Shown in pieces: positions 1 through 12,193 of a DNA stretch of 36,261 nt. The stretch spans positions 1-36,261 of IMG/VR virus record IMGVR_UViG_3300030202_000902. The stretch is one strand, 5' to 3'. Under the pieces are notes generated by a model. That model made no database searches, was not told where the DNA came from, and worked only from the letters and a program-made list of their open reading frames with translations. Within the stretch, counting starts at the first letter, position 1, and the number at the start of each line of letters is the position of its first letter. Made by a program: the position numbers and the translations under genes. This stretch comes from a virus.

Positions 1-66
1 GAAGCTTGGTTTAATAAGTGGAATGTTGGTGCTGGAGAAATGCCTTGGAAAGTGGATGCTAACTAA
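1..66 (+). CDS. 3' end of a rightward gene (partial)
   Basis: The plus strand is open from the first base and ends in TAA at 64-66. It gives a 21-residue C-terminus rich in Trp and ending WKVDAN. The rest of the gene lies outside the window, so no function can be given. It converges on the leftward helicase gene, with the two stop codons interleaved (TAA on plus, TAG on minus). Since all other plus-strand genes belong to the late arm, this is probably the last gene of that arm reached across a circular or permuted junction (inference). Confidence 0.55.
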   Translation, partial: EAWFNKWNVGAGEMPWKVDAN

Positions 67-1430
67 TCATTAAATAATGTCATAGCGTGCTCTTCAGAAG
101 TAGTTTCTCTATTTTCTGAATGTGCTCGAGCTTCTTCTGGACTATTTACTATGAGAGAAGAATCACCATCATAACCTAAATCAAACTTACAAGTAGTTCC
201 ATATCTATTCTTAGCTACAATAATCTGCTGTCCGAACTCTCCATGCTCAGCGTTATCATATTCATATACATAAGGATAATAGTTAAAGATTACGATTTCT
301 GCATCTTGTTCAAGATTTCCAGACTCAGCTAAGTCACTGAGCCTTGGAATCTTATCTACTCTATGCTCGATGTTTCGATTAAGTTGCGAAACTAGAATGA
401 CTGCACAACCAATTTCTTTAGCTAACCACTTGTATCTTCTTGTGATTTCGGCAATACGATGTCTCGTATCTTTCTTATCATAATGTGGAAACTCGATAAA
501 ACCTATATGGTCGTCAATAATAACGTCTGGTCTTATCTTTTTTGCTTCATTGATTGCTTCATCTAGACTTCTTAAATTATCAAATAATGATAGCGATGTG
601 TAATGTTTTTTTATGAAATCTATACCTTTTTCTATTTCTTTTCTGTGGTTCTCAGCGTTACCTCGCATATCTCTATTCTTTACTTTCGTATGCATAGCTA
701 AGAACTTTTTAATTATCTCTACTTTAGGCATTTCACGCGATACAAACATTACCTTTTTGCCATCGAGCACCATATTTTTAGCCATATTAAGTGCTAAGGT
801 GCTCTTACCATTTCCAGGTCTACCAGCAATTATAGATATTTCCCCCTTAGTCATACCGACTATTGCTTTATCAACCTTTTCCAAACCAGTTTGGACTAAA
901 TTCTTTTTTTCAAATATAGATGCAATCATCTCATCTGTTATATTAGATATATCTCCCATGCCTATATCTGCCATTTGAGCAAACTTCTCAGACATTTTTT
1001 GTAACATATTTATATCAGAAGATATATGTTTGTAAGAACTCTCATTTTTTAATCTTGTCATATATTTATGGCACTTTACATAAAGCTCTCTTCTTACATA
1101 TAAGTTGTATATAATTTGGGCGTGATGAACAACATTACCTTCGGATATAACTCCATCTACAAGACCAGTTAAGTAGTAAGTAATCTTTAATCCTTTCTCA
1201 CCTAGATAATTTGCAATAGTGCTCATATCTATAACTTTGTTTTGTTGTGATAAGGCATAAATTGCTGACCATATATGTTGGTGGTCTTGATGGTAAAAGA
1301 TATTTTTACTAACTAATAGTTTACTTACTTTGTGTATGTTGTCTGCATTTATTAGAATAGAACCAAGGACTTCTCTCTCGGACATTCCACTATACATTTT
1401 AGATACTTCTAGATTTTTTTCGTTATTCAA
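63..1430 (-). CDS. dnaB: Replicative DNA helicase, DnaB family
   Basis: A 455-aa hexameric 5'-3' fork helicase that would load at the phage origin and recruit host DnaG primase and polymerase. A DnaB N-terminal helical domain is visible at about residues 15-110 (SEREVLGSILIN onward). It is followed by the RecA-like domain with Walker A GRPGNGKST (about 203-211), Walker B-like DVIIDDH, and the VSQLNR and LAESGNLEQDA segments typical of the family. The length is normal for DnaB. The longest reading starts at TTG and overlaps the upstream gene by 8 nt; an ATG 11 codons further in (1397) is the alternative, and neither has a clear ribosome site. It is the last gene of the leftward replication block. 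Confidence 0.95.
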   Translation of the reverse strand: MNNEKNLEVSKMYSGMSEREVLGSILINADNIHKVSKLLVSKNIFYHQDHQHIWSAIYALSQQNKVIDMSTIANYLGEKGLKITYYLTGLVDGVISEGNVVHHAQIIYNLYVRRELYVKCHKYMTRLKNESSYKHISSDINMLQKMSEKFAQMADIGMGDISNITDEMIASIFEKKNLVQTGLEKVDKAIVGMTKGEISIIAGRPGNGKSTLALNMAKNMVLDGKKVMFVSREMPKVEIIKKFLAMHTKVKNRDMRGNAENHRKEIEKGIDFIKKHYTSLSLFDNLRSLDEAINEAKKIRPDVIIDDHIGFIEFPHYDKKDTRHRIAEITRRYKWLAKEIGCAVILVSQLNRNIEHRVDKIPRLSDLAESGNLEQDAEIVIFNYYPYVYEYDNAEHGEFGQQIIVAKNRYGTTCKFDLGYDGDSSLIVNSPEEARAHSENRETTSEEHAMTLFND

Positions 1431-1767
1431 GGTTGGGTGGTAACTCCTCTAAGTTGTTTTTTTCTTGTTCAATTTTGTTATCGAACTTCTTACTTTCGTT
1501 TCTCAATATACCTATAAAATAATATACATCAAAACCTTTTTCCTCTAACTTTCTATTTTTCCACAAGTTTATACAGAACCTAAGCACATCATCTTCTAAA
1601 TCTTTACAAGAGTGAAGCAGCGTATAAAAGTTTATTGGGTCTAGTTTGTTAAGAAATAAATGTTTTAGGTGCTCAAGCAAATCAGGATTGATTTGTTTTT
1701 CGAGAACTTTTATTTTTCTAGGATAGTTTTTTAAAGTATTCGACCAACCACAAGACGGACATCTCAT
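1423..1767 (-). CDS. Zinc-motif protein upstream of DnaB (possible helicase loader/initiator)
   Basis: A 114-aa protein. It starts with a single CPSCGW Cys pair, then a helical body, and ends in a charged segment containing YYFIGILRNE and a proline pair. It overlaps the DnaB gene by 8 nt and the preceding gene by 1 nt, so all three are probably translated in a coupled way. Phages often carry a helicase loader or replisome organiser next to DnaB, and a 'Y-F-x-x-I-x-x-N-E' C-terminal helix is common in such proteins. I therefore suggest that role, but only by position and general shape. No ATP-binding motif is present, so it is not a DnaC-type ATPase. Confidence 0.65.
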   Translation of the reverse strand: MRCPSCGWSNTLKNYPRKIKVLEKQINPDLLEHLKHLFLNKLDPINFYTLLHSCKDLEDDVLRFCINLWKNRKLEEKGFDVYYFIGILRNESKKFDNKIEQEKNNLEELPPNLE

Positions 1768-1976
1768 TAGTTTGTGTATTTTTCTATGTTAGAATCGTGC
1801 AATTTAGTTACACAAGAGTTGCAAAGAATCTTACCCTGCTTTTTTGCGTAATACTTTTGAAAGTGCTCAAGCAATTTTGTTTCTACATCGCAGCTGCGAC
1901 AATAAACTACTTCTTGATTATCTATCTGTTCTTTTAACCACGTTTTGTTGTCTTGCATTTTAATTCTTTCGGACAT
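1767..1976 (-). CDS. Small zinc-finger protein
   Basis: A 69-aa protein with two Cys pairs, CRSC (about residue 26) and CNSC (about residue 52), spaced as in a four-Cys zinc ribbon. The family is not recognised. The longest start (1976) overlaps the upstream gene by 43 nt in another frame; a second ATG at codon 7 (1958) would cut the overlap to 25 nt. Zinc ribbons in a replication block usually mean nucleic-acid or protein contacts, but nothing more specific can be said. Confidence 0.6.
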   Translation of the reverse strand: MSERIKMQDNKTWLKEQIDNQEVVYCRSCDVETKLLEHFQKYYAKKQGKILCNSCVTKLHDSNIEKYTN

Positions 1977-2275
1977 TGTTTCTTTTCCATAGGTATTCTA
2001 TTACCTATAAACTCTCTTAAAGCCACTTTACCTTTAGGCATTGTATAATAACGCCAAGGTTTACTACAAGTAGGACAACGAAAAGGTTGAAACTTAGACT
2101 TATTGCTGTAAGCAACTTCGTTCTTTTTTCTTTTTTCGCTTTCTATGTAATCGTCATCAAACCACTCATCATCAAAATAATTTTTAAGGGTTTCTTTTGA
2201 GTAATGTGACTCACGTAAATATAGCCAAACCTTACCTATGTAACAATATAGTCTTTTAATCGTCACAAACTTCAC
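1934..2275 (-). CDS. Small protein with C-terminal zinc motif
   Basis: A 113-aa protein with an aromatic-rich N-terminus, an acidic stretch (about 35-45) and the Cys pair CPTC near residue 68. Two further Cys near the C-terminus could complete a metal site. The start overlaps the end of a 48-aa gene upstream by 20 nt, in the close-packed style of this block. Family unknown. It is one of three successive genes with CxxC pairs, so the group may form a small replication-accessory set (inference). Confidence 0.6.
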   Translation of the reverse strand: MKFVTIKRLYCYIGKVWLYLRESHYSKETLKNYFDDEWFDDDYIESEKRKKNEVAYSNKSKFQPFRCPTCSKPWRYYTMPKGKVALREFIGNRIPMEKKQCPKELKCKTTKRG

Positions 2276-2402
2276 AAACTAAATTATAATCTTTATTTTG
2301 TAATTCTATATTTCGTTCTTTATTATTTTTTTTCTCTAAAGCAATAATAATCTTTTGAGCTAATAAGATAATTACTTCTGCTTCTTTTTTAGTTAGCTTC
2401 AT
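2256..2402 (-). CDS. Small 48-aa hypothetical protein
   Basis: A short gene found by reading the minus strand. It starts ATG at 2402 (or the ATG directly before it, 2405) and ends TAA at 2256-2258. The product begins MKLTKKEAEV, forms one likely amphipathic helix rich in Ile/Leu/Lys, and ends in CEVCDD, a single Cys pair. It overlaps the HTH gene upstream by about 14 nt and the next gene by 20 nt, filling exactly a gap that would otherwise be unusual in this packed operon. No family recognised. Confidence 0.5.
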   Translation of the reverse strand: MKLTKKEAEVIILLAQKIIIALEKKNNKERNIELQNKDYNLVCEVCDD

Positions 2403-2601
2403 CATTATTCTCTAAACTATATTCTGCAATAGATTTACCTTGTGGCGTAGTTATGTTTTTAGTTACGATAGGATAACCTTCGTGTCTTAAATCCCATATT
2501 CTAGCACTTAACCTTAAGCAACCAAATTTCTCTAGTGCTGATAAAGGTGTAATTTTCTCTCCATTTTTTAATGCAACAAGTATCATATCATTTTGAACCA
2601 T
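2389..2601 (-). CDS. Small helix-turn-helix protein (HTH_39-like)
   Basis: A 70-aa protein. The pattern 'ITPLSALEKFGCLRLSARI-x-DLRHEGYPI', followed by a short hairpin and a Y-x-L ending, matches the small phage winged-helix family known as HTH_39 (recalled, not searched). Such proteins are common in phage early regions and probably bind DNA. A clear AGGAG precedes the ATG. Directly upstream lies the structured intergenic segment 2621-2754, which could control its translation. It is one candidate binder for the dispersed GTGCTCR motif. Confidence 0.75.
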   Translation of the reverse strand: MVQNDMILVALKNGEKITPLSALEKFGCLRLSARIWDLRHEGYPIVTKNITTPQGKSIAEYSLENNDEAN

Positions 2602-2620
2602 TAGTATCTCCTAGTGTATT

Positions 2621-2754
2621 TTAATTTCCCCTCTTGTTTAAATTAGTGCCAACCAATTTAGTATGTGCTCACCATTAGGTGATAACCAATAACCTAGGTA
2701 AGGTGGATTTAACCACTCGACTCCTTTAAAGTCGCATTTTAGAAGGGAAATTAA
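2621..2754. ncRNA. Candidate structured RNA or cis-regulatory element
   Basis: A 156-nt gap between two closely packed genes. Its ends form a 10-bp perfect inverted repeat (TTAATTTCCC at 2621-2630 with GGGAAATTAA at 2745-2754), extendable to 13 pairs with one mismatch. Inside are three perfect hairpins: TCACC-ATTA-GGTGA (2669-2682), GTGG-6 nt-CCAC (2703-2716) and CGACT-7 nt-AGTCG (2718-2734), plus an ACCTAGGT palindrome. A closed multi-branch fold suggests an RNA in the leftward mRNA just ahead of the HTH gene. A DNA-level role is the alternative. I could not compute folding energies. Confidence 0.4.
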
Positions 2755-2757
2755 GTG

Positions 2758-2961
2758 TTAAGCTTTCGCTTTTTTGTTTTCTTTTTCTTCAGCTTCTTTA
2801 GTAACCATTTCATTTAAAGATGCAATAGCACCCAATAAACGCTGTTCTGTTACTTTTAAGCTATCAAGTTCCCCTACTCTCTTTTGGATGCCTTCTTGCA
2901 CCATTTTAAGCTCTTCTGCATAGCTTTCTAGGGTATCTTTAGCGTATTTTTTAAAGTCCAT
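2758..2961 (-). CDS. Small coiled-coil protein
   Basis: A 67-aa, highly charged protein. Heptad-like leucines over residues 8-55 suggest one long coiled coil, and the C-terminus is an E/K-rich tail ending KAKA. AGGAG lies a suitable distance before the ATG. Family and function are unknown; a dimerising accessory factor is the most that can be inferred. The structured gap 2621-2754 follows it. Confidence 0.7.
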   Translation of the reverse strand: MDFKKYAKDTLESYAEELKMVQEGIQKRVGELDSLKVTEQRLLGAIASLNEMVTKEAEEKENKKAKA

Positions 2962-2973
2962 TTTGTATTTCTC

Positions 2974-3120
2974 CTATTTTTTGCGACAAGGTGAAAAAAA
3001 GTTTTTAGCTCCTCTTAATACCTTATCCCAAAGTGTTAACGATTTCTTCTTTTTTCTTCTGTAAAGCTTAGTCGGCTCTACTTTTGTTTTTGCTTTTGCT
3101 CTTGCTTTTGCTTTTGGCAT
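2974..3120 (-). CDS. Very basic 48-aa protein overlapping the resolvase gene
   Basis: A short gene with an excellent ribosome site (AAGGAG seven bases before ATG at 3120) and stop TAG at 2974-2976. The product starts MPKAKARAKAKTKV and continues with an RRKKKK patch and LTLWDKVLRGAKNFF, so it has a basic tail plus one amphipathic helix. Its first 17 or so codons overlap, in another frame, the low-complexity K/S tail of the Hjc-like resolvase. It probably binds nucleic acid or the resolvase itself (inference). No family recognised. Confidence 0.6.
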   Translation of the reverse strand: MPKAKARAKAKTKVEPTKLYRRKKKKSLTLWDKVLRGAKNFFSPCRKK

Positions 3121-3433
3121 TTGTGCACTCCTTTATAGTTGCAATTAAACTTAAGTAATAATCTTGTGACATAATAGCTAAATTTCTACCTCTATCTTCT
3201 CCTACAAACTGAACGTGTATCTCATCAATAGGCATAAGGTGCTCAGCTAATCTTTTTCTTTTCTTGCATTGTATATGAATGCTGTCTTCTAAAACCATGT
3301 CTACTTCTTGGTGTAATCCTCTAGACCTTCCATCACTTCCCCAAGTTCTTTCTGCTTTTAAATCAAATTTATGAGCACGTTCTACGCACTTTCTTTCGTA
3401 ATATGTTCCTCTTAGCTTATTTTTTGATGGCAT
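3068..3433 (-). CDS. Hjc-like Holliday junction resolvase / PD-(D/E)XK nuclease
   Basis: A 121-aa protein. The N-terminal G-x-YYERKCVERA motif, the 'AERTWGSDGRSRG' stretch, and a beta-hairpin D-M-V-L-x8-QCKKRK follow the order E...D...(E/Q)xK of archaeal-type Hjc and related phage nucleases. It would cut four-way or branched DNA before packaging. The usual second acidic residue of ExK is Gln here (QCK), a known variant in this superfamily. After about residue 104 the protein becomes a KS-repeat tail ending KSRAD, encoded by DNA shared with the start of the next gene. GAGGAAAT precedes the ATG. Confidence 0.7.
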   Translation of the reverse strand: MPSKNKLRGTYYERKCVERAHKFDLKAERTWGSDGRSRGLHQEVDMVLEDSIHIQCKKRKRLAEHLMPIDEIHVQFVGEDRGRNLAIMSQDYYLSLIATIKECTNAKSKSKSKSKNKSRAD

Positions 3434-3646
3434 TTAATTTCCTCTGTTTGGTTCTTTTCTATATTGTTCAATCCAGCCTTTGTTTTTACTATGCTTTATA
3501 CCAGCAAAGTAATACCAGTGACCATATTGTTCGTGAAATTCTTTGTTACAATCTTCTCTCCATTTTTGGTCTTGATTTATTTTACTCTGTCTTTTATTAA
3601 ATATTGGGTTTCTATTCTTATCGTAAGTAGGATGAGATTTAGCCAT
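3434..3646 (-). CDS. Small hypothetical protein
   Basis: A 70-aa, polar and basic protein, with an aromatic cluster (HWYYFAGIKH) near the middle. AAAGGAA precedes the ATG. It lies between the DnaA-box cluster and the resolvase gene, whose start codon follows directly after this stop. No domain recognised; its position suggests a replication or recombination accessory role. Confidence 0.65.
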   Translation of the reverse strand: MAKSHPTYDKNRNPIFNKRQSKINQDQKWREDCNKEFHEQYGHWYYFAGIKHSKNKGWIEQYRKEPNRGN

Positions 3647-3664
3647 TATATTCCTTTCATAAAG

Positions 3665-3762
3665 TTATCCACAATTTTATACACATATCCACAATTTTAG
3701 GGTGAGCTATTCAGCAATAGTGTTATTTTATTTTATACGGAAAACAACAAGACTCACCCTAA
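3665..3762. other. Candidate replication origin: DnaA boxes plus 10-bp inverted repeat
   Basis: The 127-bp gap 3647-3773 contains three DnaA-box sequences in a row on the plus strand: TTATCCACA (3665-3673, perfect), TTATACACA (3677-3685, perfect) and ATATCCACA (3685-3693, one mismatch). They are followed by an inverted repeat TTAGGGTGAG (3697-3706) / CTCACCCTAA (3753-3762) that flanks an A/T-rich segment (3719-3737). A further perfect box in the opposite direction lies inside the SSB gene (4045-4053). The arrangement fits a DnaA-dependent origin placed next to SSB, annealing protein and resolvase genes. That the boxes bind DnaA is established for bacteria; that this is the phage origin is inference. 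Confidence 0.6.
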
Positions 3763-3773
3763 TTGTTTATATT

Positions 3774-4298
3774 CTAGAAGGGCAAATCATCATCAGATAT
3801 TAAGTCTTGGTCTGTTGCTTGATTCTTCTGAGCACTTGTAACTATTTTTACTCGTGCTGTTTTCATAGCATTACCATCTCTTCCAGTCCATTCTTCCATA
3901 ACTACTTCTACTTTATACTCGTATGCTTTTAACATATCAATAGTAAGTTGTGGTAAAAACATTTTGCCATCTTTTTCTTGCACTATCTTTAACAAGTCAC
4001 AAAACTTATAATAACCAGCGTTGCTTCCCATATCTGATTGCAAGTGTGGATAAAGAGAAGGATTAGGTTTTTTAAATCTAAACAAACCTTTATGCCTTAC
4101 TTCTTTCCCATCAATGTTAAACACTGGTTCATAAATGTCTGCTAAAAACTTACCTTGCACTTCTTTGTCTTCTTTGACAACAAGGTCTGTTACTTGAGCA
4201 CTATATGTTCCAGCTTCTATTGAAGATTTAGATTCACTTGGGTCATACCAAGAGTCTTCTCCAAATATATCTTCTATTTTATCCATTACATCATTCAT
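3774..4298 (-). CDS. Single-stranded DNA-binding protein
   Basis: A 174-aa protein ending in DDDLPF, nearly the same as the acidic DDDIPF tip by which bacterial SSB recruits recombination and repair proteins. The body (residues about 20-150) is beta-rich and resembles phage DUF669/SSB-like proteins rather than classical E. coli SSB. Its stop is next to the DnaA-box region. It overlaps the Sak3-like annealing gene by 8 nt, which fits a coupled pair that coats single strands and hands them to the annealase. Assignment rests on the tail and the context. Confidence 0.8.
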   Translation of the reverse strand: MNDVMDKIEDIFGEDSWYDPSESKSSIEAGTYSAQVTDLVVKEDKEVQGKFLADIYEPVFNIDGKEVRHKGLFRFKKPNPSLYPHLQSDMGSNAGYYKFCDLLKIVQEKDGKMFLPQLTIDMLKAYEYKVEVVMEEWTGRDGNAMKTARVKIVTSAQKNQATDQDLISDDDLPF

Positions 4299-4899
4299 TT
4301 TCTACTTTCTCCTTTACTTCGGGTTCTTGAAACTTCTTCAAATACTCGTCGTAATTGTTTGTGTTAATTTTAAGGGTCTTGATACCTTGTGCTACTTGTT
4401 GTTGATACTTAGCACCTTTGTTTTCTATAGACTTCATCATAACTTTATATTGTGTATCAGAAATCTCTTTAGGTTTATCTCCCTCTGGTAAGTCTTCTCC
4501 TTGGAAAATATATAAACCTAAACCAAACAATGCAAAACATTTTACTAAACATCTCTTTATAGAGTTGTTAATGTCTGTTGCTGTTGGTTTCTCTATAGTT
4601 TTGTTGTAATTATTCATTACTGGTAGTATTTCAGTTCTTTCAACTTTGTCTATTGTAACACTGACTTTTACAAAAGAACCTACTTCGGTGCTCATAAATG
4701 GCTGTCTTACATACCCCATATCTTGTCCTAAGCTTTTATCAAACTCGTGAACATACCAAGTTGCTTCTGGATACTCTTTTAGAATGTATGCTACTGCATC
4801 ACTCCAAGACAAATAATCAAACTTGCCTTTCTTCTCTTTAAACTCGTTAGCATTTATAGCAAACAAATTATCAAATACACTTTTATTTTTTGGTGGCAT
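4291..4899 (-). CDS. Single-strand annealing protein, Sak3/DUF1071-like
   Basis: A 202-aa protein. The segment 'FDYLSWSDAVAYILKEYPEA-x-W', a central 'NNSIKRCLVKCFALFGLGLYIF-x-GEDLPEG' and a lysine/glutamate-rich C-terminus are the signature of the DUF1071 family, known as Sak3-type phage recombinases. It would anneal complementary single strands produced by the neighbouring nuclease. AAAGGAG stands before the ATG. SSB, annealase and nuclease in adjacent genes form a red-like recombination module. Confidence 0.85.
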   Translation of the reverse strand: MPPKNKSVFDNLFAINANEFKEKKGKFDYLSWSDAVAYILKEYPEATWYVHEFDKSLGQDMGYVRQPFMSTEVGSFVKVSVTIDKVERTEILPVMNNYNKTIEKPTATDINNSIKRCLVKCFALFGLGLYIFQGEDLPEGDKPKEISDTQYKVMMKSIENKGAKYQQQVAQGIKTLKINTNNYDEYLKKFQEPEVKEKVENE

Positions 4900-4911
4900 T
4901 GCCTCTCCTTT

Positions 4912-5781
4912 TTAGTTAATGTGTGGACATAAGTGTCTTACTTCGCAATATCTTCTACATTTTATACCTTGCCAAGTCTCTTCTTCTGAGCACTTCTCTG
5001 GTATTGTGTTGCTAGATAAGTGATGTAATAATCTATCTCTCTTATCCAGATAATACGGAATTAAAATATCATTGTCAATAAAAGGTATGTCAACATAATA
5101 AATGTTGTTGAATATCCCTCTATCTTTAGCTGAGTATGTTCCAGCATCTCTAACGTTCATTTGTAGTTTCATTGATTTAACTTTATGACCTTTAGCTTCT
5201 AATAAATATCTATACATATTTACTTGAAAACCCCAGTCTCCAAAATCTTTTAGAGCATCATCTGAATAAAATTCTTTTACTTTTTTAATTGTTCCAGCTT
5301 TTCCCCAATTACCAGACCTTTTGTATTTAGTGCCTAGAGGGTCTGGAACTAATCTGTGTGTAAGTCCGAGCACTTTCGCTGCCTTAAAGCTTCCAGTGTT
5401 TTTATAATCTATTAACGTTTCACTTTCTATGTCATAAAAATCTAGAATACCAGTAATATTAAATCCTTCTAATTTTTCTTCTTGCAGATACTTGTCTTTA
5501 GGTAAGTCATTGTTCTCAAGTTGGGCGTGATGAATCGTTCCCATTAATGCAAAAGCTCTATCCTGTGGATTGATATAATAGTGCTCAACTCTTTTTAGGT
5601 AACTTTCACAAGTTCCTGATAAAAGTTCTGTTGTGCTCGGTGGTCTATTATCTGGTCGCTGTTCTGACATTGCTTTTAGAGTAGCAACTGACATACAACG
5701 TTCTGACATTCTGCATTTAGAAAAACAATCCTTAAATGTGGTGGTTTGTTCGTCTGGACATATAAATCCTATTACTGACAT
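4912..5781 (-). CDS. Cas4/RecB-like PD-(D/E)XK exonuclease with Cys clusters
   Basis: A 289-aa protein. The nuclease core is seen as GTIHHAQLE (about 82-90), ITGILDFYD (about 108-116) and LIDYKNTG (about 122-129), i.e. H...D...(D/E)xK. The C-terminus has a CRRYCEVRHLC run that, with an upstream Cys, could hold an iron-sulphur cluster as in Cas4/AddB nucleases. The N-terminus adds another Cys group (C9, C15, C19, C25). It would resect ends to provide single strands for the annealing protein downstream. The ATG has no clear ribosome site and sits only about 17 nt after a strong terminator, so expression probably needs read-through or regulation of that hairpin. Confidence 0.8.
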   Translation of the reverse strand: MSVIGFICPDEQTTTFKDCFSKCRMSERCMSVATLKAMSEQRPDNRPPSTTELLSGTCESYLKRVEHYYINPQDRAFALMGTIHHAQLENNDLPKDKYLQEEKLEGFNITGILDFYDIESETLIDYKNTGSFKAAKVLGLTHRLVPDPLGTKYKRSGNWGKAGTIKKVKEFYSDDALKDFGDWGFQVNMYRYLLEAKGHKVKSMKLQMNVRDAGTYSAKDRGIFNNIYYVDIPFIDNDILIPYYLDKRDRLLHHLSSNTIPEKCSEEETWQGIKCRRYCEVRHLCPHIN

Positions 5782-5797
5782 AAGATAATATACTAAT

Positions 5798-5833
5798 AAA
5801 AAAAAAGAGAGACAAGGATTAACTTGCCTCTCT
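5798..5833 (-). terminator. Strong rho-independent terminator (leftward)
   Basis: On the minus strand AGAGAGGCAAG (5833-5823) pairs with CTTGTCTCTCT (5816-5806) as 11 pairs including one G-T, around a 6-nt loop. A run of nine T follows (5806-5798). This is a textbook terminator. It lies between a TTGACA promoter (5915) and the start of the nuclease gene (5781), so it can act as an attenuator as well as the end of the upstream operon. Confidence 0.85.
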
Positions 5834-5880
5834 ATCCCAACACCACGAAAGGAACTTACAATCAGAATGATTGATAAGAT
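5798..5880 (-). ncRNA. Candidate short RNA or attenuated leader
   Basis: A transcript starting about 7 nt after the -10 of the promoter at 5915-5886 and stopping at the terminator 5833-5798 would be about 80 nt. It begins with a perfect hairpin CAATCA-3 nt-TGATTG (5873-5859), then an unpaired stretch containing TTCCTTTCG, which is complementary to an AAAGGAA-type ribosome site, then the terminator hairpin. No reading frame of note is present. It is either a small RNA or the attenuated leader of the nuclease-annealase-SSB genes. Confidence 0.4.
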
Positions 5881-5885
5881 AAAAC

Positions 5886-5915
5886 AATTTAATTATTGAG
5901 CACAAGCAATGTCAA
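5886..5915 (-). promoter_or_regulatory. Leftward sigma-70-type promoter
   Basis: On the minus strand a perfect TTGACA (5915-5910) is followed by 17-18 nt and TTAAAT/TAAATT (5892-5886). A copy of the dispersed motif GTGCTC lies inside the spacer (5898-5903), where a bound protein would block polymerase. Confidence 0.6.
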
Positions 5916-5944
5916 GCACTTTAATTATTTAATTTTTAGAAATG

Positions 5945-6042
5945 GTGCTAGAATCTAGTTAAGCTAGCTTTCTATTAGAAATGTTTAGTGTTTAGTTAGT
6001 TAGCTAGCTATTAAAGCTAACTAGTATTTACTAGCTTGTCAA
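5945..6042 (-). promoter_or_regulatory. Leftward promoter with CTAG-core palindromes
   Basis: A perfect TTGACA (6042-6037) with TAGCTT 17 nt on (6019-6014). Palindromes crowd the area: CTAGTA-TT-TACTAG (6021-6034) fills the spacer, TAGCTAGCTA is at 6001-6010, TTCTA-T-TAGAA at 5970-5980 and AAGCTAGCTT at 5961-5970. Together with the items at 5798-5915 and the hairpin at 6060, this accounts for the 331-bp stretch without a gene between 5782 and 6112. Confidence 0.5.
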
Positions 6043-6059
6043 GTTTTATTTTTAAGATA

Positions 6060-6099
6060 AGAGGCGAAACTTGATTTTGCGACCGAGTGTCTCGCCTCT
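6060..6099 (-). terminator. Candidate terminator hairpin
   Basis: AGAGGCGA (6060-6067) and TCGCCTCT (6092-6099) pair perfectly over 8 bp with a 24-nt loop, just after the stop of the 68-aa gene. The T-run on the minus side is poor (TTATCTT), so termination may be partial; a stabilising hairpin is the alternative. Confidence 0.4.
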
Positions 6100-6112
6100 C
6101 TTTTGATTTAGC

Positions 6113-6319
6113 TTAAATAGACTTGACCAATTTGTCTCCACGTCTAACGCTGAAACTATGGTCTCTTTCACATTGCATTATTAGCAAAGCTTCTTTCTTA
6201 TTTTTTGCTAAGTATGAGCACGTTATGTAGCCATTTAGGGCGTGCTCTTCCCTAAGTAGAAAGGTAAATTGTTTTAGATTACCACAACTTATCTTATTTG
6301 TAGTTCTTAAATCGAGCAT
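6113..6319 (-). CDS. Small hypothetical protein
   Basis: A 68-aa protein with a strong GAGGAG before the ATG. The core 'GYITCSYLAKNKKEALLIMQCERDHSFSVRRGDK' looks like a small alpha/beta fold in which a helix follows a strand. No family recognised. It is the last gene of the operon that starts near 10363, followed by a hairpin and a new promoter. Confidence 0.7.
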   Translation of the reverse strand: MLDLRTTNKISCGNLKQFTFLLREEHALNGYITCSYLAKNKKEALLIMQCERDHSFSVRRGDKLVKSI

Positions 6320-6384
6320 ATCTAACTCCTCATATTGTTGAATATAGGTGTTCTTTTAAATATACGAACTAATATTTGTTAAAT

Positions 6385-6531
6385 TCAACTGATTTTATTT
6401 TTGAGCAATTCTACTTCGTGCTCAAGTTTTTTTAGCATTTCTTGTTCTTTACCTAGTTCTAAAGTCATTGTTTCTGCAACCGACTTTAACAAATCCAGTG
6501 CTTTAAATAACTCTTTTATTGGTGTCTTCAT
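6385..6531 (-). CDS. Small coiled-coil protein (48 aa)
   Basis: Found by reading the minus strand: ATG at 6531 preceded by AGGAG, stop TGA at 6385-6387. The product (MKTPIKELFKALDLL at the start) carries heptad leucines through to the end (LKKLEHEVELLKNKIS), so most of it should form a coiled coil. It lies directly after the GroES gene. Function unknown. Confidence 0.6.
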   Translation of the reverse strand: MKTPIKELFKALDLLKSVAETMTLELGKEQEMLKKLEHEVELLKNKIS

Positions 6532-6541
6532 TATTTGTCTC

Positions 6542-6811
6542 CTATGTGTAAAATATTATTCCTAATATATCTCCTTCTCTAATCAGAAGAAGCTCTTCTT
6601 CATCTTTGAGCACTTTGTTACCAGAATAGTCGTTAAATATTACGTAATCATCTGGTTCTAAAGTTTTTACATCGTTACCTACTGATTGCACAACTCCTCT
6701 TGTTTCTTTCTTTTGGTCGGATTGTGCTAAGACAATACCACTATCGGTAGTCTCTTTTATTTTATCTACTTTTACTGACACAAAATCGTGCAGTGGTTTT
6801 ATTATGGTCAT
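6542..6811 (-). CDS. groES: Co-chaperonin GroES (Cpn10)
   Basis: An 89-aa protein, slightly shorter than the bacterial GroES of about 97 aa. It starts IIKPLHDFVSVKV, has the mobile-loop pattern SGIVLAQSDQKKETRG (about 24-39) that docks on GroEL, and later GxxVKTLEPDDYVIFNDYSG and a final LLIREGDILGII. It would cap the host GroEL for folding phage proteins, as gp31 does for T4 capsid protein. No GroEL is in the window. The stop of the 51-aa gene upstream overlaps its ATG (ATGA). Confidence 0.95.
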   Translation of the reverse strand: MTIIKPLHDFVSVKVDKIKETTDSGIVLAQSDQKKETRGVVQSVGNDVKTLEPDDYVIFNDYSGNKVLKDEEELLLIREGDILGIIFYT

Positions 6812-6966
6812 TTTTTATCTCCTTGTATGATTTTTCCTAACTTTTTATCGAACTCTTTAATAGTAAGTGCTCGATTAATTTTTACATCTCCTCTTTCGTT
6901 TGCAATGTAAAATATTTCTTGAGTAACTCTAGGGATTGCACCCTTGGCATATACTTTACTCATCAT
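6808..6966 (-). CDS. Small 52-aa hypothetical protein
   Basis: Found by reading the minus strand. ATG at 6966 (a second ATG follows at once at 6963) overlaps the upstream stop by 4 nt, and its own stop overlaps the GroES start by 4 nt. Both are typical coupled ATGA junctions. The product begins MMSKVYAKGAIPRVTQEI and contains a helix ending KKLGKIIQGDKK. No family recognised. The perfect fit between neighbours supports a real gene. Confidence 0.65.
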   Translation of the reverse strand: MMSKVYAKGAIPRVTQEIFYIANERGDVKINRALTIKEFDKKLGKIIQGDKK

Positions 6967-7208
6967 CTTGTCATATTGTCTAGTGCATAATCTGCATTTT
7001 TCTCTGCTTGAGCATCCATTTCTGCTGTCATATCGTCTTCCAGCTGAATCTCTTCTTTTGACATAGTAGAAGGATTATAATTATCTCTTATTCTCCTAAT
7101 AGATGATATATTATTATAAAACATAAACTCAAAACCTAAGTCTTTAAGCTCATCTATCTTTCTACCTATTTCTTCTTGTAATTCAAACGCTTTTTCTGCT
7201 TTACTCAT
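6963..7208 (-). CDS. Small hypothetical protein
   Basis: An 81-aa, acidic and mostly helical protein with AGGAG before ATG. Residues 1-25 form a likely amphipathic helix, and the C-terminal half is rich in D/E/A/M. Family unknown. Confidence 0.7.
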   Translation of the reverse strand: MSKAEKAFELQEEIGRKIDELKDLGFEFMFYNNISSIRRIRDNYNPSTMSKEEIQLEDDMTAEMDAQAEKNADYALDNMTR

Positions 7209-7216
7209 TATTTCTC

Positions 7217-7414
7217 CTATTCTGTTTTTGTGTAAATTTCTATTTCATTAGTTAAATCCATATTACTTGCTAAAAGATTATCTTTCTCTGTAATAAGATG
7301 CCCATATTCGTAGTTTCCTTCTAATCCATCTGCATATTGAACTACGATTACGTCTTTATCTCCATATTCAACTAATATATCTTCTAACTCTTTAATTAAT
7401 TTACTAATCTTCAT
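7217..7414 (-). CDS. Small conserved phage-type protein
   Basis: A 65-aa protein with GGAGG before ATG. The opening MKISKLIKELEDILVEYGDKDVIV and a following Y-A-D-G turn match the small phage/prophage proteins that start 'MKVSELI-x-x-L' and have no assigned function. An alpha-beta fold is likely. It shares one base with the next gene upstream. Confidence 0.7.
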   Translation of the reverse strand: MKISKLIKELEDILVEYGDKDVIVVQYADGLEGNYEYGHLITEKDNLLASNMDLTNEIEIYTKTE

Positions 7415-7674
7415 TAATCATCCTCCATTAGCTTATTATATTCTTCTTCTGTATCTGGAAACTGAATTACTGATTTTATATCGTGTAGAATATCTCTCAT
7501 TTTATCTATATCTTTAGCATTGTTAGTGCTTGATTCTATTCTATTAATTAATATCAGCATCATATTTATATGCTTGAGCATTGTATCTGTATCGGTTTTA
7601 AGCTTTTCGATTTTATGCTCAAGACTTGCTATTTCTAGAATGTCTCTTGTGCTACGCTTCTGCAATGTGCTCAC
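7414..7674 (-). CDS. Coiled-coil hypothetical protein
   Basis: An 86-aa protein read from GTG at 7674, which has AAAGGA four bases upstream; a TTG at 7689 would add five residues but lacks that spacing. Heptad hydrophobics (ASLEHKIEKLKTDTDTMLKHI and on) indicate a coiled coil, then an acidic end. It overlaps the 295-aa gene by 23 nt. Function unknown. Confidence 0.65.
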   Translation of the reverse strand: MSTLQKRSTRDILEIASLEHKIEKLKTDTDTMLKHINMMLILINRIESSTNNAKDIDKMRDILHDIKSVIQFPDTEEEYNKLMEDD

Positions 7675-8539
7675 CTTGTCCTTTCGCAATTTGAGCTTCT
7701 AAGTTCTTTAACTCTTTACTTATAGCTTTAGCTATGTCTTGAGGATTAGACAAGTTACCTAAAGATTCTGGTGTAACTGCTATGTTTTGCCTCTCTAATT
7801 CCTCTATGTGCTCAGTTTTAACTCGTGTGATAACATTGCTAAAGAACTTTAAGAATGTTTCCACCTCTATCTCTTTACTGAAAGTAAACGACTGAGATAA
7901 AAACCTAAGACCTTCGTTAATCATTGGATTTTCTGAGGTAAAACTAAACACCTCTTGAGAATCTCCTTCTGACATAGCTTGTTTAGTCTGTTCCCAACTC
8001 ATTTTGCTTTCAGAGATAGCTTCTAGAGTGTCTGATATGTCTTTAAGATATTCTTTGAGGACAAGAGATTCTTCTCTGTCGTCTCTTAAAGAGATATGAT
8101 AGATGGACATTCTCCATTCATACAATGAATAATCAACGTCTCTCTGTGTTTCTTTAAGATAGCCTTTAGCAATTAGTTTTGCTAAGTCTGCAAAATACAT
8201 ATCTCCATATTCCCAAGAACCATAAGTAGCATCACTCTTGACTGCTGTCATAATTCTAGCAGTGTTAGATGAAGTCAACTCTTTAAGTGCTTTTGGTGAG
8301 TTCCAACATTTGAGCACGCGAAATTCTGCATTTGTTCCATAGATTTCGTGTTCTTTTGTTAGTTCGTATGTAATATAAGGGTTGTCGACCTTACGTTCTT
8401 TCTTGCAAGTATTGATATTTAGTGTGTCCATAGTTATTTCGCAAGCTTTCTTAGAATACTCTAGGAATTGCTCTTTAGAAAAATTTTGAACTGGGTTAAC
8501 GTTGTGTGTAAAGCTGGTGTGTCCTTCTGGAACTGCCAT
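7652..8539 (-). CDS. Unrecognised 295-aa protein
   Basis: The largest unassigned protein of this operon. AAGGAG precedes the ATG. It is mixed alpha/beta, with 'YGSWEYGDMYFADLAKLIAKGYL' in the middle and a helical C-terminus (KAISKELKNLEAQIAKGQGEHIAEA). No nucleotide-binding, nuclease or metal motif is evident. It lies between a membrane protein and a coiled-coil protein. I do not recognise the family and assign no function. Confidence 0.75.
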   Translation of the reverse strand: MAVPEGHTSFTHNVNPVQNFSKEQFLEYSKKACEITMDTLNINTCKKERKVDNPYITYELTKEHEIYGTNAEFRVLKCWNSPKALKELTSSNTARIMTAVKSDATYGSWEYGDMYFADLAKLIAKGYLKETQRDVDYSLYEWRMSIYHISLRDDREESLVLKEYLKDISDTLEAISESKMSWEQTKQAMSEGDSQEVFSFTSENPMINEGLRFLSQSFTFSKEIEVETFLKFFSNVITRVKTEHIEELERQNIAVTPESLGNLSNPQDIAKAISKELKNLEAQIAKGQGEHIAEA

Positions 8540-8543
8540 AATA

Positions 8544-8858
8544 TTACTCTCCTTGTGGTTTGTTGTTGTTTGAATGTCGCAAATTCAGATAAAATCTACG
8601 AAATCTGTGAATTCTTGTCAAGTTATTTTTAAAAAATCTTTTTGTTATCGTCATAAACAAGCTAATTACCAAAAACCAGTAGAAGAAATCGCAAAACCCT
8701 ACTAAAAATTCAGTTAATGATACGTATGAGTTGTCAGATATTAAATTATGTCTCAAGTGCTCGAATATTAACACTGAAATCAATGAAATTGCTATGGATA
8801 AAGCAAAAGTTACTCTCCAAGATAGTTCTATAACTCTGTTAATGTAGTATTTAGTCAT
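8544..8858 (-). CDS. Small membrane protein, two TM helices
   Basis: A 104-aa protein with two hydrophobic segments (about 16-35, VTFALSIAISLISVLIF, and about 52-72, FLVGFCDFFYWFLVISLFM) and a strongly basic C-terminal tail that should stay in the cytoplasm. It is encoded in the early arm, away from the lysis genes. A superinfection-exclusion or host-membrane role is more likely than a holin, but this is only inference. Confidence 0.7.
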   Translation of the reverse strand: MTKYYINRVIELSWRVTFALSIAISLISVLIFEHLRHNLISDNSYVSLTEFLVGFCDFFYWFLVISLFMTITKRFFKNNLTRIHRFRRFYLNLRHSNNNKPQGE

Positions 8859-8866
8859 ATTTTCTC

Positions 8867-9265
8867 CTATTTTATCTTCGCATTGCCTAGTTGTAACTTA
8901 CCAGACCTTAAAAGTGCTCGTGCTTCTTTCATATTATAACCTTTTGAAGAACGTCGTGTGCATCTTTTCTCGTCAATAGCACTTTGTAAGGCGTGTCTTA
9001 ACATAAGGTCTGGAAAAGCTTTAAAGTTTTCTTTTCTTTTTTGGGAATCTTTCTTTTTTCTTATATCTAATTCTTTACCTTCATATCTTCTTTTGGCGTT
9101 TTTAGCTCGTTGTTTATCTCTTGAAGCTTTATTACACCAATAATTAGCTGTAGCATAAGATACGTTGAACCTATCAGCTATTGACTGATAAGTCCAACTT
9201 TGTTTTCTAAGTGCTCGCATTTTATCTACGACATCTTGTGTTACTTTGTATCTTTTGTCCAACAT
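8867..9265 (-). CDS. Helix-turn-helix DNA-binding protein
   Basis: A 132-aa basic protein. The stretch 'KMRALRKQSWTYQSIADRFNVSYATANYWC' (about 15-44) is a clear homeodomain-like HTH of the kind in resolvases and small phage regulators: helix, turn at F-N-V-S, recognition helix. The middle is very K/R-rich, and the C-terminus has a second helical segment. It may regulate the leftward promoters or bind the dispersed GTGCTCR sites (inference). It overlaps the upstream stop by 1 nt. Confidence 0.75.
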   Translation of the reverse strand: MLDKRYKVTQDVVDKMRALRKQSWTYQSIADRFNVSYATANYWCNKASRDKQRAKNAKRRYEGKELDIRKKKDSQKRKENFKAFPDLMLRHALQSAIDEKRCTRRSSKGYNMKEARALLRSGKLQLGNAKIK

Positions 9266-9561
9266 CAGTTGATAGAAGTGTCTGGTGTGTATGCATCTTT
9301 AAAAGATAAGTCCTCTTTCAAGGTTCTTAAGTCTCTAGATGCCTCTAAAATAGTAGCTTTACAACCATTCATATAACCAGCGTAGTAAATTGCTATCATT
9401 TCTGGTGGTGTGTCTTTCGGAACAACGTCTCGAATCAAACTTTCTATTACTTTAAAAGAACTTAAAGTAATGTCCTTATTTTCGAGCACCTTTAGCACTT
9501 CTGCTTGGATTTCTTCTATCCTTGGCATTATATTATTTCTCACGTTACTATTAACCATCAT
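9265..9561 (-). CDS. Small hypothetical protein
   Basis: A 98-aa, largely helical protein, with AAGGAG before a double ATG. The segment 'PPEMIAIYYAGYMNGCKATILEASRDL' is the only distinctive stretch. No family recognised. It overlaps the previous gene by 11 nt. Confidence 0.7.
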   Translation of the reverse strand: MMVNSNVRNNIMPRIEEIQAEVLKVLENKDITLSSFKVIESLIRDVVPKDTPPEMIAIYYAGYMNGCKATILEASRDLRTLKEDLSFKDAYTPDTSIN

Positions 9562-9724
9562 TCATTCTCCTTTGTATAGGTTTTAATTTAACTAATATTC
9601 GTTTAGCCATTTTATCCATAATTTCTAAACTTACTGATTGAGATAAATACATATCTAAAAAATCAACAATTTCTAATATGTCAAACTCGTCATTATTTTC
9701 GTATTTTTTGTTAAAATATGTCAT
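9551..9724 (-). CDS. Small hypothetical protein
   Basis: A 57-aa protein. The start at 9724 is chosen because GGGAGG lies just upstream and the ATG overlaps the preceding TGA (ATGA); the ATG at 9736 contains the ribosome site itself. The product (MTYFNKKYENN...) is acidic at first and basic at the end (KRILVKLKPIQRRM). Function unknown. Confidence 0.65.
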   Translation of the reverse strand: MTYFNKKYENNDEFDILEIVDFLDMYLSQSVSLEIMDKMAKRILVKLKPIQRRMNDG

Positions 9725-9969
9725 ACTTCCTCCCATTCTATGTTTGTGTCGTCTCCATGCTCTATAGTCTCAAAATTAATATATCCTTGAGCACCAGTAT
9801 CTTCTGACTTGAATTTAATTTTACCGATTGGTGTATGTCTCTCTATAATTCCACTAGCCATACTTAAAGAATTATGTATATCTTCTCTGTTTAACTCTTG
9901 CTCAGACTCTACGTAATAGTGTTTAGTGTCTACGCTTGTTTCTGTTACTTTATATTCATATTTAGCCAT
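9721..9969 (-). CDS. Small beta-rich hypothetical protein
   Basis: An 82-aa protein. Alternating polar/hydrophobic residues (YEYKVTETSVDTKHYYVES, IKFKSEDT, YINFETIEH) suggest mainly beta structure. No family recognised. The stop-start overlap of one base with the upstream gene suggests translational coupling. Confidence 0.7.
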   Translation of the reverse strand: MAKYEYKVTETSVDTKHYYVESEQELNREDIHNSLSMASGIIERHTPIGKIKFKSEDTGAQGYINFETIEHGDDTNIEWEEV

Positions 9970-10178
9970 TATTTATTCTCCTTTAGCATTTTATTTATTG
10001 CATTAATCATAAGCTTTGCTTGAGAGTTTTCAGTTTCTAGGATAGTATATTGTTCTCTCTCTTCGTCATAGTATCTACCATCATAATCTTCAAACTCTCT
10101 CTCCATAATTCGGTTGTTGCATTTTATTGTAACTTGCAAACTTTTTTTTATGGACATTACTATTTTTTTATAGTCCAT
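9969..10178 (-). CDS. Small hypothetical protein
   Basis: A 69-aa protein with a D/E/Y-rich middle (DYDGRYYDEEREQY) between two helices. Overlaps both neighbours by 1 nt. Function unknown. Confidence 0.65.
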   Translation of the reverse strand: MDYKKIVMSIKKSLQVTIKCNNRIMEREFEDYDGRYYDEEREQYTILETENSQAKLMINAINKMLKENK

Positions 10179-10363
10179 TATTTATCCTTCTTTCTACCAA
10201 AGAAATCTGCAAGTCTAGCTGGTATAACTACTTTGTCGTTACAATCGTCACAACATCTGCCATCATTGACTGGTTGAGCATTGTGTCCATCAGACCAATA
10301 AACTCTACCTTCTGGCGTTTTGTGTTCTTGTATTGGTTCTGGACATATTGAACATTGTTTCAT
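10178..10363 (-). CDS. Small conserved zinc-motif phage protein
   Basis: A 61-aa protein read from ATG at 10363, nine bases after AAGGAG; a longer reading to 10408 lacks such a site. It starts MKQCSIC and contains 'YWSDGHNAQPVNDGRCCDDCN-x-x-VIPARL', a pattern I know from many phage proteins of unknown function, with CxxC and CCxxC as a zinc site. It is the first gene of the second leftward operon, behind a leader with two hairpins. Confidence 0.8.
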   Translation of the reverse strand: MKQCSICPEPIQEHKTPEGRVYWSDGHNAQPVNDGRCCDDCNDKVVIPARLADFFGRKKDK

Positions 10364-10395
10364 AGGGTGTTTCTCCTTCGTGGTTATTAAATTTT

Positions 10396-10448
10396 CCGAG
10401 GGTAACAAGAGGTATATCAGCTATCCCTCGGTTAGTGCGACGAAGCAC
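10396..10448 (-). promoter_or_regulatory. Two hairpins in the 5' leader of the second leftward operon
   Basis: GTGC-6 nt-GCAC (10435-10448) and CCGAGGG (10396-10402) / CCCTCGG (10425-10431, 22-nt loop) lie between the promoter at 10513 and the ATG at 10363. No T-run follows, so they are more likely control or stability elements than a terminator. Confidence 0.35.
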
Positions 10449-10484
10449 ATAATTTTTTGGTGTTGTTTGCAAAATCATCGACAC

Positions 10485-10513
10485 AACTTACTGCGAATTA
10501 TTGAGGTTGTCAA
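10485..10513 (-). promoter_or_regulatory. Leftward sigma-70-type promoter
   Basis: Minus-strand TTGACA (10513-10508), 17 nt, TAAGTT (10490-10485), leading into the operon that starts at 10363. The 338-bp stretch 10364-10701 holds this promoter, the leader hairpins, a GTGCTCAAG copy (10607-10615) and the terminator of the upstream operon; no gene of note is present. Confidence 0.55.
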
Positions 10514-10650
10514 GGAATTTTTCATTTATTTTTCTCTATCTCCTTATGCGTAAGAGCTTAGAGGGATGCACCTCGTATCGATTTCTAGATTCGCAACTTT
10601 TTAAAGGTGCTCAAGTTTTTTTGTCGACGAGACGGACGACATAAACAAAA

Positions 10651-10678
10651 AACCCCCTAGCATAATCGCTAGAGGGTT
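10651..10678 (-). terminator. Rho-independent terminator (leftward)
   Basis: On the minus strand AACCCTCTAGC (10678-10668) pairs with GCTAGGGGGTT (10661-10651) over 11 positions with one mismatch and a 6-nt loop, then TTTTTTG... follows downstream. It ends the GC-richer operon 14081-10702. Confidence 0.75.
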
Positions 10679-10701
10679 CTTCGTGCCTACTGAGGTTCTC
10701 G

Positions 10702-10899
10702 TCAGTATCTTCGTGCTGGATATTTCTTAATACAATCGTTGCACTTGATACCGAAGAAGATTCCTCGGTGGTCTGTTCTTTGCCAAGGATGATACCATCC
10801 TCCTACAAGTGGATTCATCGTCATAAGGTCTGGCGATTTCTTCTTGCAAATCTGGCAACTTTGTTTTATTCCCTTGTGCTCTTCGTCGTGATATCTCAT
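10702..10899 (-). CDS. Small zinc-finger protein
   Basis: A 65-aa protein with two Cys pairs, CQIC (about 16) and CNDC (about 54), suggesting a four-Cys zinc ribbon around a Trp-rich centre. The competing reading 10727-10921 in another frame lacks any such pattern and is treated as a shadow. Last gene before the terminator at 10678. Confidence 0.7.
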   Translation of the reverse strand: MRYHDEEHKGIKQSCQICKKKSPDLMTMNPLVGGWYHPWQRTDHRGIFFGIKCNDCIKKYPARRY

Positions 10900-11156
10900 T
10901 AGTAGTCCTCTGTGTTTCCATACATTTCTACTATCTCTTCACATAGCTCAATAACTCGTGGAACGTGTCTTTTTTCGTATTGTCCTACGTATTCCTCACA
11001 AGTCTCAGCGTCTCCACAAGCCTCAAGGAACGTTTGCACGTCCTCTAAACAAGGAGCAGTGTGCTCAAAAAGCAAGTGACTCCCTCTCTTGTCGTTTAGT
11101 TCAGCATTGCTGATGTCATTTGATATTGTTTCGTGTTGTTCGTCTGTTAAAGCCAT
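10899..11156 (-). CDS. Small acidic hypothetical protein
   Basis: An 85-aa, very acidic protein with AAGGAG before the ATG and three Cys spaced through the second half. Mostly helical by composition. Its codon use (GAG, CGT, CTC) matches the AAA+/VWA-like genes upstream rather than the AT-rich genes downstream, so it probably belongs to that module. Function unknown; acidic small proteins can be DNA mimics, but nothing here proves it. Confidence 0.65.
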   Translation of the reverse strand: MALTDEQHETISNDISNAELNDKRGSHLLFEHTAPCLEDVQTFLEACGDAETCEEYVGQYEKRHVPRVIELCEEIVEMYGNTEDY

Positions 11157-11177
11157 TTTGTAATCTCCTTTTTGTGT

Positions 11178-11201
11178 GCCCTCAGCTTTATTGCTAAGGG
11201 C
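11178..11201 (-). promoter_or_regulatory. Intercistronic hairpin
   Basis: GCCCTTAGC-6 nt-GCTGAGGGC on the minus strand: nine pairs including one T-G. It lies between the VWA-like gene and the next ribosome site, without a T-run, so it is likely an mRNA stability or processing element. Confidence 0.4.
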
Positions 11202-11218
11202 GTTAGTGTTAGTGGTGC

Positions 11219-12193
11219 TCAGTCTCTTACTACTCCGACAACGTTAGTAAGAATGTCGCTGAAGTGGTCGTTCTTACCGACGTAGACATCAGCATCGACT
11301 AGCTTTTTGTATGTCTCTAGATTATCCTCTGGTGATATTCTAGTGTAAAGAGGATAGCCAAGACCATCGCCGATACCTAGACAACCCTTCCAGTATGAGA
11401 AGAGTATGTCTCTGAAGATACCAGTAACGCAGTAGTTGACTAGCTTGCTCTCGTTGATAGGCTCGCCAGCTTTCTTTGCTATGAACTTAGTCACCTCGAT
11501 GCATCTGTCGACGTTCTTCATACCAGAGAATTTGTTTAGTCTGATATTGCTCTTGTCCATATAGCTAGTGCTACCGAAGGAAATCTCGGTCGCGTAGCCT
11601 TTCTTCTCGAGCACCTCACAAATTGCAATCGCTTTAGTAGCTGTCTCTATGATTCTCTCAGCATCTACTGAACCAGACTGAGCATAGTCGATAAACACTC
11701 TGACTGATTTTTGAGAGTTGTTTCTCTTGAACGTCTCCATAGGATTAAGACCAGTCATTGCTTTGTCGATGTTTACGATACAACCAGCAATGTCTGAACG
11801 ACGTTTACGTCGAGTGTCTAGACCAATAGAACCTAGCTTTGCTATGCGTTCTGGACTAGCGAGCAACTTACTCTTCGCGTTCTTGTAGTAAGACCAGCCT
11901 TTGTCTGATGCATAGCCCTTGGCTATCTGCTTGAGCAAGAACTCACGATTGTTATAGTCGAGACAACTCTCGAACTTACCATAACTACCGACACAATCGA
12001 ACTCTAACGCTATCTCTGGACAATCATTCGTAGCCTCAGTTATTAAGTCTGAGAGGCTGTCGAACGCGTGAGTCAAGGTCGTAACTTTACGCGTAGATGC
12101 ACCACTACGAGCCATCTCAGTCTCAGTGTAACGCGTTCTATTCTTCGTCAAAGGTCTGTTCTTGTCGTTTACTCTCTGTGTTGGTGTCGACAT
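11219..12193 (-). CDS. VWA-like partner of the AAA+ ATPase (DUF7192/CobT-like)
   Basis: A 324-aa protein. The segment VRVFIDYAQSGSVDAE (about 164-179), followed by a helix (AIAICEVLEKKGYATEI) and a strand, has the layout of a von Willebrand A first strand and metal-site loop. The usual DxSxS is replaced by D-Y-A-Q-S-G-S, so the metal site may be degenerate. It resembles phage proteins I recall as DUF7192. The N-terminus is basic and likely unstructured. It overlaps the AAA+ gene by one base; AAA+ MoxR/CobS proteins typically work with a VWA protein on a common target. The target here is unknown. Confidence 0.65.
   Translation of the reverse strand: MSTPTQRVNDKNRPLTKNRTRYTETEMARSGASTRKVTTLTHAFDSLSDLITEATNDCPEIALEFDCVGSYGKFESCLDYNNREFLLKQIAKGYASDKGWSYYKNAKSKLLASPERIAKLGSIGLDTRRKRRSDIAGCIVNIDKAMTGLNPMETFKRNNSQKSVRVFIDYAQSGSVDAERIIETATKAIAICEVLEKKGYATEISFGSTSYMDKSNIRLNKFSGMKNVDRCIEVTKFIAKKAGEPINESKLVNYCVTGIFRDILFSYWKGCLGIGDGLGYPLYTRISPEDNLETYKKLVDADVYVGKNDHFSDILTNVVGVVRD

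Follow-up and report, generated by a model that had tools for sequence, protein, structure and literature searches.

A three-box DnaA array in a phage replication module as a candidate docking site for the host initiator

Where does a phage begin to copy its genome if it carries a replicative helicase and a recombination set, and could the host initiator DnaA mark that place? This question is raised by a short gap in a 36,261-bp linear virus record, analysed here over its full length and referred to as the window. Genes from 63 to approximately 14,080 lie on the minus strand, late genes on the plus strand. The module of interest runs, in the order of transcription, through exonuclease, Sak, SSB, the gap 3773–3647, a 70-aa ORF, resolvase, a winged-helix protein, a 114-aa protein, and DnaB. 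The gap, which adjoins ssb, features the arrangement TTATCCACA-ATT-TTATACACA-TATCCACA—three boxes on the plus strand at offsets of 0, 12, and 20, spanning 29 bp in total. Box 1 (3665–3673, TTATCCACA) and box 2 (3677–3685, TTATACACA) are perfect; box 3 (3685–3693, ATATCCACA) carries one mismatch and has one base in common with box 2. The boxes fit the universal DnaA consensus, and the two perfect and one near-perfect box reported in a preliminary description are borne out. The same array occurs in an independent assembly (L001, a contig 99.8% identical over 10.2 kb).

The array is a DnaA-box cluster beyond chance, as judged by its score and by simulated pairs. It scores 41.6 as a cluster; none of 60 simulated sequences exceeds 26.7, and the runner-up place of the genome reaches 16.8. 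When the window is simulated 1000 times with an order-2 Markov model, an exact TTATNCACA pair at most 20 bp apart turns up in 2 runs (0.2%). The array is the sole one in the 36-kb record, and near-boxes are not enriched over the whole genome (47 observed, 55.6 expected).

Further anatomy that had been attached to the boxes does not belong to them. The TTATCCACA box at 4045–4053 inside ssb, previously taken as an extra perfect site, consists of the SSB codons CTT TAT CCA CAC (Leu-Tyr-Pro-His); the same codons read TTA TAT CCA CAC in one relative and AAA TAC CCT CAC in another. Because the box disappears upon codon change, it tracks the protein and is a codon by-product, so that an additional DnaA site at this position is ruled out. 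The 10-bp inverted repeat (3697–3762, minus strand; arms 3697–3706, TTAGGGTGAG, and 3753–3762, CTCACCCTAA; loop of 46 nt) is present as described, but belongs to the 3′ end of ssb, immediately behind the stop codon, where the RNA fold has a z of −3.8. Relatives carry a hairpin of differing sequence at this place, with or without boxes, and its z ranges from +0.8 to −4.5, i.e. its strength is variable. Since box-less relatives retain the hairpin, the repeat is rejected as part of an origin; judging from this comparison, it pertains to the 3′ region of the ssb mRNA and is unrelated to the DnaA array. The hairpin has no U-tract, lies between genes of a single operon, and may serve in the processing or stability of the mRNA. 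The A/T-rich segment of the preliminary description turns out to be ordinary for this genome: a 60-mer just as unstable is present in 61% of stretches of the same size in the window, and unusual duplex instability at the array is rejected on this ground. No DnaA-trio repeat was seen near the array on inspection by eye.

The genes around the array are replication and recombination genes, which speaks for an origin; those named here all lie on the minus strand. Ahead of it in transcription are a PD-(D/E)XK exonuclease (4912–5781), a Sak-type single-strand annealing protein (4291–4899; Pfam SSAP_Sak, 3.9e-43), and the phage single-strand DNA-binding protein encoded by ssb (3774–4298; PHROG 378, E = 1e-4). 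The 70-aa ORF (3434–3646), of unassigned function, begins 19 bp behind the array and is only sometimes present at this place in relatives. It is followed by a probable PD-(D/E)XK Holliday-junction resolvase (3068–3433), a motif-based name for a candidate with no match in Pfam or PHROG. A 114-aa all-helical protein (1423–1767) sits directly upstream of the DnaB-type replicative helicase (63–1430; Pfam DnaB_C, 1.5e-55) and is, by position only, a candidate helicase loader. A loader of the G39P or DnaC type was considered and found no support: the AlphaFold model is all helical (pLDDT 80), it has no PDB match at E < 1, and the protein belongs to no Pfam family. The preliminary description saw no polymerase, primase, or obvious initiator in this phage. 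This holds for DnaA (PF00308), family-A polymerase (DNA_pol_A, PF00476), and the DnaG zinc-ribbon (PF01807), found in none of 14 linear-fragment records (the window and 13 relatives) by a profile search confined to these families. Among the 20 window proteins scanned, no recognised initiator is present, and several small proteins match nothing assigned.

Relatives were gathered from IMG/VR by searches with SSB, Sak, and the two markers, exonuclease and resolvase. They comprise approximately 19 close relatives with collinear modules and terminases 79–87% identical, and many distant ones with terminases at about 50%. Among the close relatives, the array is found at three intergenic sites. Site A, behind ssb, is occupied in the window and its two nearest relatives, G001 and G002; there, the boxes persist and most of the gap has diverged. 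Box 1 is kept in G001 and reads TTATCCCCA in G002, box 2 is kept in G002, and box 3 in both. Site B is found in G005, where the identical 29-mer—all three boxes, with the 12-bp spacing of box 2—lies 1.3 kb upstream of the exonuclease gene and 3.4 kb upstream of ssb. It is reversed relative to transcription and shares no flanks with the window, and the SSB of G005 is 61% identical. The offsets 0, 12, and 20 are identical in three genomes. Site C is occupied in eight genomes (G006, G007, G016–G019, G021, and G022), where the array precedes the exonuclease gene by 5 to 7 kb and follows a terminator-like hairpin, with GCGTTTAAAC on each side. The number of boxes varies from 2 to 8 between flanks that otherwise align; G017, G019, and G022 have two boxes only and would not be singled out by score alone. 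The figure for duplex instability corresponding to the 61% of the window is 9–36% at this site.

No genome examined carries a second array. The array is absent from G003, G008, G011, and G023, which have the same gene order, and from the partial G009, all linear-fragment records in which absence is weak evidence; the record of G004 is a fragment of 8 kb, and that of G020 is uninformative because the site lies beyond its end. The 12 distant relatives, which have these modules too, show no array in the parts read, and among 77 resolvase loci arrays occur in close relatives only. In a terminase tree, site C falls within one supported clade (99/96), except for the cut record G020, and site A in the window–G001 pair as well as in G002, the sister of the array-less G003—a distribution that points to a history with gains, losses, or moves. 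The expected conservation among phages that share this gene order is found in part: several relatives keep the array, whereas several close ones with the same replication genes lack it. The three intergenic sites, the identical 29-mer of G005, and the fixed spacing suggest that the array is kept by selection where it occurs, G003, G008, G011, and G023 being without it.

Since relatives hold the same cluster in other genome gaps, the array is probably a genuine, movable docking site rather than a product of chance. Box sequence and spacing survive a change of place, orientation, and neighbours, which argues for a site read by a protein on duplex DNA and against a promoter, RNA, or coding signal. 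The boxes follow the DnaA consensus, and the records lack DnaA, family-A polymerase, and DnaG-type primase; the simplest function would be docking of host DnaA to start replication with the DnaB of the phage. The earlier idea of a host-DnaA cis site has accordingly gained from the relocation among three sites, in contrast to the A/T-rich, inverted-repeat, and ssb-box anatomy that had accompanied it. We lean, by a modest degree, towards the array being a binding platform for host DnaA and the core of the phage replication origin. DnaA binding, the start of replication at the array, and the helicase step are each inferred. Host DnaA would oligomerise on the tandem boxes and would open or distort nearby DNA. 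It would then help to place the replicative helicase, i.e. the phage DnaB, perhaps with the 114-aa protein. The genome would be copied by host primase and polymerase, and later replication would be handed to the phage exonuclease/Sak/SSB/resolvase recombination set. The lack of an unusual duplex-unwinding element next to the array in the window counts against an origin, as do the array-less genomes G003, G008, G011, and G023 and the 12 distant relatives. GC skew, proposed earlier as a check, shows no switch at 3.7 kb, neither over the whole strand nor at third positions; because skew follows transcription here, it is uninformative on an origin.

More tentatively, the origin of these phages may be a small relocatable DnaA-box cassette of variable box number, which moves between fixed intergenic slots of otherwise collinear genomes. 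Initiation would then lie wholly with the host initiator, the phage supplying DnaB, SSB, and the recombination set. If true, these phages would outsource replication initiation to host DnaA with no recognised initiator of their own, and the origin would relocate while genome order stays fixed. The array would then present a defined stretch of 29 bp to footprint and delete, and comparing relatives would allow origins to be predicted in uncultivated phages.

Among other readings, a DnaA sink fares best, though it is unlikely: the array would titrate host DnaA in the manner of datA, stalling initiation of the host chromosome and freeing replication proteins for the phage. Such a sink would be indifferent to position and orientation, as observed, would tolerate a box number of 2 to 8 at one site, and would need no unwinding element. 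However, three boxes are few at first entry, and the exact spacing in three genomes exceeds the needs of titration. Somewhat less likely still is a transcription switch, in which DnaA bound to the boxes acts as a repressor or activator of the genes that follow and couples their expression to the cell cycle of the host. In sites A and B the array does stand close before the ribosome-binding site of a gene, and DnaA is already known as a transcription regulator (PMC8203912). Yet the orientation to the following gene is opposite in the window and G005, and the genes behind the array differ among the window, G001, G002, G005, and G006/G007. This variation makes a switch less likely, and site C has no gene start within approximately 350 bp. 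The boxes might alternatively be iteron-like sites of a phage-encoded initiator with an accidental resemblance to DnaA boxes. Repeats at a fixed spacing in a few sizes and small unassigned DNA-binding-like ORFs in the module would suit this, but we consider it improbable. The repeats match the universal DnaA consensus including C/A variation at position 5, which DnaA tolerates, and no phage protein of this sample covaries with them. That the array is a product of chance or a neutral, functionless remnant, for which one could cite the several close relatives lacking it, is disfavoured by the conservation and very improbable, given how rarely a single exact pair arises in simulated windows, the recurrence of the identical 29-mer in G005 at a place not linked to the first, and boxes conserved within diverged gaps.

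Arrays of this type are not singular to this phage. In a survey for two boxes separated by 8 to 15 bp, a pattern derived from the array, at least 120 viral stretches gave a match, and at least 95 distinct viral contigs carry such arrays, with up to 9 boxes; DnaA-box arrays are therefore recurrent in phage genomes and of a kind already known. Among the matches listed, none of 119 viral stretches examined holds a recognisable DnaA gene, and in 104 of the 119 the array lies outside ORFs of at least 80 aa. Terminase, primase/polymerase, resolvase, and endonuclease families recur among 70 neighbouring proteins of the matches listed and are rare among 70 distant control proteins from the same contigs. 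The frequent position outside ORFs and the recurrence of primase/polymerase and resolvase families beside the arrays listed speak for an origin. The presence of terminases among these neighbours, again in the matches listed, counts against an origin. Terminase large-subunit genes account for at least 7 of the 70 neighbours versus 1 of the 70 controls among the matches listed. A search of 84,980 species genomes with the array sequence gave eight matches in unrelated bacteria; the DnaA ATP-binding motif is present in only one of these eight stretches, so the array sequence names no host. Named phage genomes gave weak short matches only, with no annotated use of a similar array.

Compared with known systems, the array resembles bacterial oriC clusters in its intergenic tandem TTATNCACA boxes at 11–12 bp spacing, read by DnaA in oriC and predicted to be so here. 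It differs in being smaller (three boxes), phage-borne, and not fixed in position, and no unwinding element or DnaA-trios are recognised. The origin of P1, oriR, and similar plasmid origins contain host DnaA boxes within the origin of a mobile replicon, but also require a replicon-encoded initiator (RepA) and its iterons; neither a RepA-like initiator nor iterons are recognised in the window. The datA locus of Escherichia coli and other chromosomal titration sites are likewise intergenic DnaA-box clusters whose place may vary; their size and partners differ, and a titration role of the array is putative. The window shares with SPP1 and 80alpha a module that unites helicase, SSB, annealing protein, and nuclease, which in those phages feeds recombination-dependent replication (PMC5499656). 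SPP1 starts from the initiator G38P and the 80alpha origin is embedded in ORF20 (PMC5499656), whereas no phage initiator is recognised in the window. In lambda, host DnaA regulates the theta-to-sigma switch (PMC5499656). Other published phage work considered here presents DnaA boxes as single-genome predictions; Pseudomonas phage vB_PseuGesM_254, with intergenic boxes predicted by Ori-Finder, is such a case (PMC11512268). The array described here is, in contrast, backed by a comparison of relatives.

The early region carries a second, dispersed motif. GAGCAC/GTGCTC (consensus approximately RRGTGCTCAA) occurs 54 times in the window against 12 expected, on both strands, in every reading frame, and in coding as well as intergenic DNA. 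Forty-six copies lie within 1–14400 (about one per 300 bp; e.g. at 87, 765, 3373, 3830, 6242, 9211, 13286, and 14374) and eight in the late 22 kb. A like excess is found in G001, G002, G003, G005, G008, G009, G011, and G023 (39–92 copies) and is absent from distant relatives. These copies could be stoperator-like operators or sites of another phage DNA-binding protein. The sister lineage (G004, G006, G007, and G016–G022, e.g. L158 and L159) has no such excess in the records checked and instead features the dispersed, palindrome-like CGTTTAAACG / GCGTTTAAAC, with 7–26 exact GCGTTTAAAC copies per record; in G006 and G007 the motif lies mostly in the early region. Two of the GCGTTTAAAC copies are the direct repeats that flank the DnaA array of this lineage. 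The lineages also differ in gene content, with an AAA+ plus DUF7192 pair in one and another gene set in the other (G006/G007), which is a lead to the motif-binding protein. In the early region of the window, the AAA+ ATPase (AAA_5/MoxR-like, 12193–13599) adjoins the DUF7192 protein (11219–12193), and both genes have a G+C of 0.44–0.50, above the rest of the genome. The window also encodes a GroES-like co-chaperonin (6542–6811; Cpn10, E = 2e-19).
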